Below are positions 18,564 to 53,132 of a DNA stretch of 64,000 nt, in pieces. Position numbers and translations under genes: made by a program. This stretch comes from Desulforamulus ferrireducens (GTDB lineage Bacteria > Bacillota > Desulfotomaculia > Desulfotomaculales > Desulfotomaculaceae), in NCBI RefSeq assembly GCF_002005145.1, contig NZ_CP019698.1, positions 620,001-684,000 of the forward strand. Reading direction: 5' to 3'. The notes beneath the pieces were generated by a model. The model was not told the DNA's origin. It made no database searches and saw nothing but the letters and a program-made list of their open reading frames with translations. Every line of letters begins with the position of its first letter. The stretch's first letter is position 1.

Positions 18564-18710
18564 AAAAAAACCGCACGCCTGTGCGGTCAGAGGCATAACA
18601 AATAAATTACCATCCTTTCCGCACGGGAGGCCTACCCGTTTCCAGGTAAACCCTATCGGCCAAGTAACCATAATCTAACATTACAGGTTACATGGCTCGG
18701 AGGTAACACT
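18564..18710 (-). ncRNA. Candidate structured RNA or riboswitch-like leader ending in a terminator
   Basis: On the minus strand this region can fold into a closed multi-stem structure. P1 is GTTACCTCC (18707-18699) with GGATGGTAAT (18615-18606); P2 is GCCATGTAACC with GGTTACTTGGC (10 of 11 pairs); P3 is TACC-loop-GGTA around TGGAAACG. An intrinsic terminator follows: CCGCAC-AGGC-GTGCGG then seven T. It lies about 300 bases upstream of hydA on the same strand. No known riboswitch consensus was recognised. It may be a regulated leader or an independent small RNA. Confidence 0.45.
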
Positions 18711-18715
18711 ATAAT

Positions 18716-37711: not shown

Positions 37712-37740
37712 TTGACTTATGATGTTACTTTTTGTATACT
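37712..37740 (+). promoter_or_regulatory. Promoter of tRNA cluster 1
   Basis: TTGACT (37712-37717), 17-base spacer, TATACT (37735-37740); tRNA-Asp begins 34 bases later. Confidence 0.8.
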
Positions 37741-37773: not shown

Positions 37774-37850
37774 GGAGCTGTGGTGTAGAGGCCTAACATG
37801 CCTGCCTGTCACGCAGGAGATCGCGGGTTCGACTCCCGTCAGCTCCGCCA
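37774..37850 (+). tRNA. tRNA-Asp (GTC)
   Basis: Full cloverleaf with 7-bp acceptor GGAGCTG/CAGCTCC, anticodon loop CTGTCAC and encoded CCA. Confidence 0.95.
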
Positions 37851-37853
37851 AGC

Positions 37854-37929
<76 letters not shown>

Positions 37930-37938
37930 TATTATTAA

Positions 37939-38013
37939 GCGGAAGTGGCTCAGTGGTAGAGCATCGCCTTGCCAAGGCGAGGGTCGCGGGTTCGAATCCC
38001 GTCTTCCGCTCCA
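37939..38013 (+). tRNA. tRNA-Gly (GCC), copy 1
   Basis: Acceptor GCGGAAG pairs with CTTCCGC; anticodon loop TTGCCAA; T-arm GCGGGTTCGAATCCCGT; CCA encoded. It is followed directly by an array of repeats derived from its own 3' part. Confidence 0.95.
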
Positions 38014-39008
38014 TTTTTATATTTAGCACTTTTACGGGGTATAGTTATAAAGGCGAGTGTCGGAGGGTTCGAAGCCCCTCCCCGTCTTCCGCTCCATTTT
38101 TATATTTAGCACTTTTACGGGGTATAGTTATAAAGGCGAGTGTCGGAGGGTTCGAAGCCCCTCCCCGTCTTCCGCTCCATTTTTATATTTAGCACTTTTA
38201 CGGGGTATAGTTATAAAGGCGAGGGCCGGAGGGTTCGAAGCCCCTCCCCGTCTTCCGCTCCATTTTTATATATGGCACTATTGTGGGTATGGTTATAAAG
38301 GCGAGGGCCGGAGGGTTCGAAGCCCCTCCCCGTCTTCCGCTCCATTTTTATATATGGCACTATTGTGGGTATGGTTATAAAGGCGAGTGTCGGAGGGTTC
38401 GAAGCCCCTCCCCATCTTCCGCTCCGTTTTTATATTTGGCACTATTACGGGGTATAGTTATAAAGGCGAGGGCCGGAGGGTTCGAAGCCCCTCCCCATCT
38501 TCCGCTCCATTTTTATATTTAGCACTTTTACGGGGTATAGTTATAAAGGCGAGGGCCGGAGGGTTCGAAGCCCCTCCCCGTCTTCCGCTCCATTTTTATA
38601 TTTAGCACTTTTACGGGGTATAGTTATAAAGGCGAGGGCCGGAGGGTTCGAAGCCCCTCCCCATCTTCCGCTCCATTTTTATATTTAGCACTTTTACGGG
38701 GTATAGTTATAAAGGCGAGGGCCGGAGGGTTCGAAGCCCCTCCCCGTCTTCCGCTCCATTTTTATATTTAGCACTTTTACGGGGTATAGTTATAAAGGCG
38801 AGGGCCGGAGGGTTCGAAGCCCCTCCCCATCTTCCGCTCCATTTTTATATTTAGCACTTTTACGGGGTATAGTTATAAAGGCGAGGGCCGGAGGGTTCGA
38901 AGTCCCCTCCCCATCTTCCGCTCCGTTTTTATATTTGGCACTATTGTGGGTATGGTTATAAAGGCGAGGGCCGGAGGGTTCGAAATCCCCTCCCCATCTA
39001 CCGCTTCA
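38014..39008 (+). repeat. Tandem array of 12 tRNA-Gly 3'-end-derived units (82-84 bp)
   Basis: Twelve head-to-tail units (ends near 38096, 38179, 38262, 38344, 38426, 38509, 38592, 38675, 38758, 38841, 38925, 39008). Each unit has an AT-rich leader (TTTTTATATTTAGCACTTTT or variant TATGGCACTATTGTGGG), then GTATAGTTATAAAGGCGAGG, a T-arm-like hairpin GGAGGG-TTCGAAG-CCCCTCC and the acceptor 3' strand CTTCCGCTCCA. The 5' half of a tRNA is absent. Units differ by a few substitutions; the hairpin arms and the TTCGAA loop are kept in all. Confidence 0.95.
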
Positions 39009-39014
39009 TTATCC

Positions 39015-39089
39015 GGCGGCATGGCCAAGTGGTAAGGCAGAGGACTGCAAATCCTTTATTCCCCAGTTCGAATCTGGGTGCCGCCTCCA
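39015..39089 (+). tRNA. tRNA-Cys (GCA)
   Basis: Acceptor GGCGGCA pairs with TGCCGCC; anticodon loop CTGCAAA; encoded CCA (TCCA end). It begins 6 bases after the repeat array. Confidence 0.95.
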
Positions 39090-39092
39090 ATA

Positions 39093-39126
39093 AAAAACCT
39101 GAACGAGCAAATCGTTCAGGTTTTAG
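39093..39126 (+). terminator. Terminator of tRNA cluster 1
   Basis: AAAACCTGAACGA pairs perfectly with TCGTTCAGGTTTT. Confidence 0.85.
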
Positions 39127-40693: not shown

Positions 40694-40769
<76 letters not shown>

Positions 40770-40777
40770 TATTATCT

Positions 40778-40852
40778 GCGGAAGTGGCTCAGTGGTAGAG
40801 CATCGCCTTGCCAAGGCGAGGGTCGCGGGTTCGAATCCCGTCTTCCGCTCCA
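40778..40852 (+). tRNA. tRNA-Gly (GCC), copy 2
   Basis: Same sequence as copy 1; followed by two 3'-end-derived units. Confidence 0.95.
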
Positions 40853-41016
40853 TTTCCTAACTATAGTAGTATTGCCAAGGCTTGGTTATAAAGGCGAGGG
40901 TCGAAGGGTTCGAAGCCCCTCCCCGTCTTCCGCTTCTTGTTTTTAGATATTTTTTGAGGTTTGGTCATTAAGGCGAGGGCCAGAGGGTTCAAAGCCCCTC
41001 CTCATCTTCCGCTCCA
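40853..41016 (+). repeat. Two diverged tRNA-Gly 3'-end-derived units
   Basis: Unit a (40853-40936) contains TATTGCCAAGGCTTGG, a remnant of the anticodon arm, then AAGGCGAGGGTCG and the T-arm/acceptor block ending CTTCCGCTTC. Unit b (40937-41016) is more diverged (GGGTTCAAAGCCCC) and ends CTTCCGCTCCA. Same plan as the 12-unit array. Confidence 0.88.
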
Positions 41017-41019
41017 TAT

Positions 41020-41094
41020 GGCGGCATAGCCAAGTGGTAAGGCAGAGGACTGCAAATCCTTTATTCCCCAGTTCGAATCTGGGTGCCGCCTCCA
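41020..41094 (+). tRNA. tRNA-Cys (GCA), copy 2
   Basis: As at 39015 with one D-arm change (CATAGCC for CATGGCC). Confidence 0.95.
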
Positions 41095-42202: not shown

Positions 42203-45006
<2,804 letters not shown>

Positions 45007-45227
45007 TAACTGTCAATTTTCCAAAAGGTTGAAAGGGCTACGCCTTTTGGGGCTCCGCCCCAAACCCCGGGGGATTTTTATGGGATCCAGGTCCCGAGGG
45101 TGGCTTTGAAACAAGTTAATACAAAATGTCTTCCATTAAATGTTATTAAGGATTTCTCGCTTTAAATGTTGCATTTAATATTGCAATCTATGGTTAAATA
45201 TCTATTAAATAAACCACAACTTGGATG

Positions 45228-45280: not shown

Positions 45281-45355
45281 GCGGAAGTGGCTCAGTGGTA
45301 GAGCATCGCCTTGCCAAGGCGAGGGTCGCGGGTTCGAATCCCGTCTTCCGCTCCA
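45281..45355 (+). tRNA. tRNA-Gly (GCC), copy 3
   Basis: Identical to copies 1 and 2. Confidence 0.95.
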
Positions 45356-45440
45356 TTTCCTAACTATAGTAGTATTGCCAAGGCTTGGTTATAAAGGCGA
45401 GGGTCGAAGGGTTCGAAGCCCCTCCCCGTCTTCCGCTCCA
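45356..45440 (+). repeat. One tRNA-Gly 3'-end-derived unit
   Basis: Same sequence as unit a at 40853-40936 (TTTCCTAACTATAGTAGTAT...), but ending CTTCCGCTCCA. The tRNA plus unit block of ~160 bp is duplicated between the two loci. Confidence 0.92.
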
Positions 45441-52526: not shown

Positions 52527-53132
52527 CAAAACCACTGAGGCACTGTCAACAACCTTTCTTACCCCCTAACCGTCATTGTGTGGCAACTTTAACGGTAGGG
52601 TAAGAATATGCTGTTGGCAAGTGTCTATTTTATTACTGCTGATGGCAATCACTCTAAAGTTTTTGGTTGCCAAACTCTATATTTTTATTATGCCAAATAC
52701 ACCCCTTACCAAAAGAGGCTAACACGGGCATTCTTTATGTCAAGGGCCGACGATTCGCTCTGATGAACGACTACCTTACTTTTCCAAACCTATACAAATC
52801 AATATGAGAATGGCTTTCTGTTCTCTCAGATTATTTAAGCTAGCTAAAATGGAAAATTTCCAGCTTTTTTATTTGAAAATCTACACTTATGAGAAGCATC
52901 TCGTTAAATACTCTGTACTGCCCGAGCCAAACCTAATTTTAAGTATCCACAGCAAACACTAAGCCCCCCGAAAAGCTCGGAGGGCTTCTAATCAGAAGAG
53001 AACATTGGTAGGACGGCGTACCCTACATCTCTTTAAGGACCGCTATAAAAGCGGCGTGGCAGCTGCCTTTCTGCCCTCAATCTTCTCCTCTCATATATTC
53101 TATTTAATTCAATTTTAAAATATACCATACCA
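52527..53132. other. Non-coding stretch with terminator-like hairpins
   Basis: Hairpin AAGCCCCCCGA/TCGGAGGGCTT at about 52961-52988 (one mismatch) and a short palindrome TGGAAAATTTCCA followed by T residues near 52850. No frame with a good ribosome-binding site. Confidence 0.45.

Follow-up and report, generated by a model that had tools for sequence, protein, structure and literature searches.

The rtT RNA of E. coli has been reported as an RNA freed during maturation of the flanking tRNAs, and RtT elements have been described mainly from enterobacteria and Pasteurellaceae; to our knowledge, neither a function nor an origin of RtT is settled. A repeated tRNA-derived sequence also lies within a tRNA operon of Photobacterium phosphoreum, in the tRNA-Pro/tRNA-His cluster, the report of which was not found by our literature search. 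In a Salmonella comparison, rtT RNA is listed as a 175-bp VNTR (PMC2658671). In E. coli K-12, the last 19 nt of the units at tyrT and tyrV, AATCCTTCCCCCACCACCA, reproduce the end of tRNA-Tyr exactly, and the same kind of core is followed at tRNA-Arg(ACG) and tRNA-Lys by exact 18-19 nt copies of those tails. Of the K-12 units, those at Tyr and Lys are recognised by the Rfam model RF00391 (up to 137.5 bits); the argQ-argZ-argY-argV spacers (L214) carry an RtT-like core with an exact tRNA-Arg tail that scores below the gathering threshold of RF00391. Among 5426 E. coli genomes, 4680 are matched by an RtT query at 1-9 places each, and strain SK1144 has no RtT units at its tRNA-Tyr pair.

The genome under study is that of Desulforamulus ferrireducens (G000), a member of the Bacillota (NCBI family Peptococcaceae); G001, G002, G005, G006 and G008 designate other Desulforamulus species. 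In the 64,000-nt stretch that was analysed (the window), TRF reported a single array (37998-39010, period 83, 12.2 copies, 95% match), and cutting at the tRNA-like 3' ends likewise yielded the 12 tandem units of 82-84 bp that the earlier note had placed between tRNA-Gly(GCC) and tRNA-Cys, in the operon order Asp-Phe-Gly-[12 units]-Cys (Table 1, array A). The sequence GGAGGGTTCGAA occurs 12 times in the array and, when one mismatch is allowed, 14 times in the window compared to 0.2 expected. The units of array A keep a AAGGCGAG-like sequence, the TTCGAA T-loop and a CTTCCGCTCCA end, and their 3' end is a copy of the last ~16 nt of tRNA-Gly, CCA included, in agreement with the proposed derivation from the tRNA-Gly 3' end. 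This tail is common to the units, but their supposed uniformity does not extend to unit 12, which is degenerate (CTACCGCTTCA) and the most divergent of the 12. Identical sequences were found for units 1-2, for units 3, 7 and 9 and for units 8 and 10; since unit 7 equals unit 9 and unit 8 equals unit 10, the pairs 7-8 and 9-10 appear to stem from a duplication of two units together. None of the units reached the ARAGORN or Rfam RF00005 threshold for a full cloverleaf; only the real tRNAs were called. A coding function was rejected for the array, as its ORFs do not exceed 107 aa and the frame shifts at every 83-bp unit. A promoter-like site precedes the operon and a terminator-like hairpin is found only after tRNA-Cys, none lying within the array; with this predicted placement the units would be co-transcribed with the tRNAs, as anticipated earlier. 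Elsewhere in the window, Rfam recognised a skipping-rope RNA (53000-53085, minus strand, 67.7 bits) and a Moco/tungsten-cofactor riboswitch (18595-18714, minus strand, 72 bits).

Table 1. Features of the three tRNA-Gly(GCC) regions of the window (window coordinates)
Feature	Position	Strand	Basis
Promoter-like TTGACT-17-TATACT upstream of the tRNA operon	37712..37740	+	consensus scan, 10/12; predicted
tRNA-Asp(GTC) and tRNA-Phe(GAA), upstream operon members	37774..37929	+	ARAGORN, Rfam
tRNA-Gly(GCC) no. 1, from which the tail derives	37939..38013	+	ARAGORN, Rfam 74.6 bits
Array A, 12 tandem tRNA-Gly-tail units	38014..39008	+	TRF, motif count, unit cutting
tRNA-Cys(GCA), downstream operon member	39015..39089	+	ARAGORN, Rfam
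Terminator-like hairpin closing the operon	39094..39124	+	13 pairs, 5 G-C
Second cluster: tRNA-Phe and tRNA-Gly(GCC) no. 2	40694..40852	+	ARAGORN, Rfam
Array B, a pair of diverged units preceding the tRNA-Cys at 41020	40853..41016	+	sequence, genome search matches
tRNA-Gly(GCC) no. 3	45281..45355	+	ARAGORN, Rfam
Array C, one unit, then tRNA-Asp and tRNA-Leu; within the 158-nt tract identical to the Gly no. 2 locus	45356..45440	+	sequence, genome search matches

The count of 12 units was correct for array A, but further units had been missed: those of arrays B and C, those of a fourth tRNA-Gly(GCC) and those of tRNA-Glu loci. Behind the fourth tRNA-Gly(GCC) (G000:C1:2238232-2238306) stand three units that belong to another subtype and run from 2238231 downwards, the last one truncated. 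At the Glu-Tyr locus, tRNA-Tyr is preceded by four units of ~43 bp and of the type TTTTTGTAACACTGTTCGAAGCCCCTCCCCATAGGGG(T/G)CACCA, of which the fourth has a deletion; at the Glu-Val locus, a single 81-bp unit precedes tRNA-Val. In total, tail units were found at 4/4 tRNA-Gly(GCC) and 2/3 tRNA-Glu(TTC) loci of D. ferrireducens. When each tRNA of the fetched D. ferrireducens tRNA loci was compared, with gaps, to its own downstream sequence, 3'-tail copies were found at no other tRNA type. Over the Gly and Glu loci, unit size ranges from 43 to 85 bp and copy number per locus from 0 to 12. Transposase-like ORFs occupy the interval that separates tRNA clusters 2 and 3 (window 42203-45009), and a start region resembling that of the window ORF at 43005 recurs upstream of the fourth tRNA-Gly.

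Each unit consists of four parts: (i) an AT-rich, locus-specific stretch, which duplicates the local spacer at several Glu loci; (ii) sequence of the resident tRNA, starting at the 3' side of the anticodon stem or in the variable region; (iii) a non-native T-arm block, GTTCGAAGCCCCTCCC(C)RT, common to Gly and Glu units; and (iv) the acceptor 3' strand and CCA of the resident tRNA. Where both resident tRNAs have GGGTTCGAATCCCGT, Gly and Glu units have GTTCGAAGCCCCTCCCCRT in common, and the flanks of the shared block match, on both sides, the resident tRNA of each unit. The T-arm had been described as altered in both arms; the alteration is rather an insertion of GCCCC after TTCGAA together with changes on the 5' side, and no compensated two-sided swap was seen across loci. 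The inserted GCCCCT equals nucleotides 2-7 of tRNA-Glu, and the unit of G008 has GGCCCCT, nucleotides 1-7. This short match only suggests that the block could have arisen at Glu and moved to Gly via a T-arm stretch identical in both tRNAs. Regarding the AT-rich part of the Gly units, alignments with the spacer and the start of tRNA-Cys were suggestive, but P against shuffles ranged from 0.05 to 0.94.

The earlier note had also held that pairing is kept while the sequence changes, and had argued from this for selection on an RNA hairpin or on a recombination site. The comparison of units led to a different picture. The T-arm pair GGAGGG/CCCTCC shows no variation within array A but is disrupted at other loci (77.4% of cells paired), and no compensatory change was detected in this pair across the Gly units. 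The folding energies of 11 units lay within about 1.3 sd of those of shuffles, with the exception of one G002 unit (z -2.6), and consensus folds were weak in both the Gly and the Glu sets. The common stem of the Gly set contained no pair changed on both sides, and that of the Glu set one compensated pair compared to several broken cells. Duplex energies between the AT-rich part and the acceptor strand or tail were no better than those of shuffles. With no compensatory changes and mostly ordinary folding energies, the units give no direct indication that an RNA fold is under selection.

Gly loci 2 and 3, which are 4.5 kb apart, carry one and the same 158-nt tract that spans tRNA-Gly and 82 nt of unit; its edges are abrupt on both sides, which points to recombination or gene conversion. 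Decayed unit copies were found at several loci, and in most arrays the most decayed unit is the last one. At the Glu-Tyr and Glu-Val loci of D. aeronauticus (G006), the AT-rich start of every unit is a copy of the local spacer, and at the Glu-Tyr locus of D. ferrireducens the spacer ATTTAATAT, known from G001, resumes after the array. The simplest account of copy-number gain and loss would be recombination between the tail repeats. The unit copies are accounted for by ordinary recombination; the part that is not ordinary is the shared block, which stands behind two different tRNAs and is kept across species.

Units are present in 4/9 Desulforamulus species, namely D. ferrireducens, G002, D. 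aeronauticus (contig G006:C23 corresponds to NZ_FRAR01000009.1 of strain DSM 10349) and G008. Homologous units lie at the same loci in G002 and D. aeronauticus, and G008 has one unit; their presence beside tRNA-Gly in related genomes, one of the checks proposed in the earlier note, indicates that the array is not a one-off duplication. In an rpoB tree, D. ferrireducens, G002 and D. aeronauticus form one clade, and G008, the assembly of which is of low quality, is placed elsewhere, with G005. In the five unit-free species the spacers are short, measuring 4-61 bases at the Glu loci and no more than a few at the Gly loci. At the Gly-Leu locus of G008 (G008:C37, L061), the tRNA-Asp located between Gly and Leu in relatives is missing, and a truncated unit-like piece, TTAAGGCGA, occupies its position. 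Outside the genus, neither the block in tRNA context nor closely spaced tRNA-Gly tails were found in 104 genomes of the order. A search with the Gly-type pattern over the genomes of 84,980 species, a set that possibly does not cover the record of the window itself, returned only D. aeronauticus and one match outside tRNA context. The Microvirga pattern match, those in L102-L105 and five order-level matches (L130-L132, L136, L137) were discarded, as no tRNA adjoins them. Our literature search found no report of such repeats in Desulforamulus or Desulfotomaculum.

Conservation of the block was compared with that of neutral sites. Between D. ferrireducens and D. aeronauticus, 4-fold degenerate sites are 47% identical (159/339) in four genes near the array and 45% identical in rpoB, and the AT-rich parts of the units align no better than by chance. 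The shared block is unchanged between these species at Gly and Glu loci. Conversion from the resident tRNAs cannot renew the block, as these lack the insertion. The tRNA-Gly(GCC) T-stem of G002 (G002:C16) and D. aeronauticus (G006:C23) has itself changed to GCGAG/CTCGT, compared to GCGGG/CCCGT, a compensated change in a real tRNA, and the units did not follow. Since the block has persisted between species despite extensive turnover of neutral sites, selection probably acts on at least some copies. This argument, which is post hoc and assumes vertical descent, hints at constraint on at least some copies of the block; transfer between species, or a mutational mechanism that recurs, would be compatible with an unchanged block as well.

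We consider it probable that these units form an RtT-like family of tRNA-tail repeats, made of tail and spacer sequence by recombination, transcribed within the pre-tRNA and freed as CCA-ended RNAs. The direct repeats of the tRNA tail would allow units to duplicate, to be deleted and to convert one another by recombination; the units would be transcribed as part of the pre-tRNA, and maturation of the flanking tRNAs would release them as CCA-ended spacer RNAs, as reported for rtT of E. coli. At least some block copies are probably kept by selection; any function of the RNA is putative. The main competing explanation, which we regard as possible but on balance doubtful, is neutral tandem duplication, the units being functionless partial tRNA duplicates that are amplified by unequal crossing-over, are homogenised by gene conversion and then decay. 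The identical units and divergent last unit of array A and the 158-nt tract are the same recombination evidence for both explanations, and the decay of the last unit in most arrays, the five species without units, the lack of covariation and the mostly ordinary folding all speak for neutrality; the last three of these, and the decayed copies at several loci, also weigh against the RtT-like reading. However, a neutral origin sits poorly with a block that is common to Gly and Glu units and that, although not renewable from the tRNA, is unchanged at a neutral identity as low as that measured here.

A more ambitious proposal, for which we see a rather small chance, is that the units constitute a second, independently evolved regulatory RNA system of RtT type outside the Gammaproteobacteria, in which multicopy CCA-ended RNAs from tRNA-Gly and tRNA-Glu transcripts would pair through their C-rich block with G-rich targets and couple tRNA output to translation. 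The C-rich block contains CCUCC, which resembles the anti-Shine-Dalgarno sequence.

It is improbable that the units are CCA-ended acceptor-stem mimics (minihelices) under structural selection that act as decoys for tRNA enzymes. A stem between the GGCGAGGG-type sequence and the acceptor 3' strand can be formed in 92.9% of cells over 11 Gly units, and several Glu units, in which the insert itself matches tRNA-Glu, have a 6-bp GCCCCU...AGGGGU hairpin ending in CACCA. The Gly stem, however, is built of native tRNA sequence and is therefore expected without selection, it shows no compensatory change, the block is unpaired with the Gly tail, and the single compensated pair of the Glu set is set against its several broken ones. 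The acceptor pairing of two D. aeronauticus units and one G002 unit appeared compensated by eye; this comparison, of three sequences including one with a mismatch, was not used as evidence.

That the units are attachment sites stacked in a row, or scars left by integrative elements using the tRNA-Gly 3' end, is very improbable: tRNA 3' ends are common integration sites and every unit carries a copy of one at its end, but the units measure only 43-85 bp and contain no cargo, those at Glu loci copy the local spacer, no unit matched the phage, plasmid and viral collections, and no PF00589 (phage-integrase) domain lies within about 80 kb of the Gly(GCC) or Glu loci of D. ferrireducens. In this genome PF00589 matches are at 1.02, 1.12 (weak), 2.02, 2.32-2.33 and 2.41 Mb, the Gly loci at 0.658-0.665 and 2.238 Mb and the Glu loci at 0.095, 2.188 and 2.600 Mb. 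A separate locus (G000:C1:2411192-2412174, L086), where tRNA-Leu (2411375-2411458) adjoins a phage-integrase domain (2411587-2412174) and a weak tRNA-like match of 18.3 bits starts at 2411192, is a likely site at which another element has integrated. The Desulforamulus units also show that a repeated tRNA 3' end, taken alone, is no evidence of integrative elements.

Among known systems, genomic islands and prophages bordered by tRNA 3'-end repeats share with the Desulforamulus units the duplicated tRNA 3' end, but the Desulforamulus repeats enclose no element, integrase or cargo. The 3'ETS-leuZ of the K-12 glyW-cysT-leuZ operon, a small regulatory RNA by annotation, is likewise a non-tRNA part of a tRNA transcript; it differs in being one non-tandem copy of 67 nt, annotated directly after leuZ and not ending in a copy of a tRNA tail. 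The earlier note knew of no named family with the plan of these units; that plan is found in RtT (RF00391, rttR, tyrT repeats). In both systems, repeats within tRNA operons combine a common core with a copy of the 3' tail of the resident tRNA, CCA included, at several tRNA species (Tyr, Arg and Lys in E. coli, Gly and Glu in Desulforamulus), and copy number varies, among E. coli strains and from one Desulforamulus locus to another. By contrast, the Desulforamulus core is unrelated: RF00391 had no match in array A up to an E value of 1 and none in D. ferrireducens, G002 and D. aeronauticus. The E. coli units are also longer (178-bp period at tyrT) and have a 5' arm that, read by eye, complements the tail, whereas the Desulforamulus units have no such arm beyond shuffles. 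Moreover, the Desulforamulus units belong to tRNA-Gly and tRNA-Glu in Bacillota, and their RNA product is putative. The Desulforamulus units are built like RtT units and yet are not members of RtT. The four species with units and the five without constitute a natural comparison, and finding the same plan, with an unrelated core, in so remote a phylum would point to a process or role that recurs at tRNA 3' ends.
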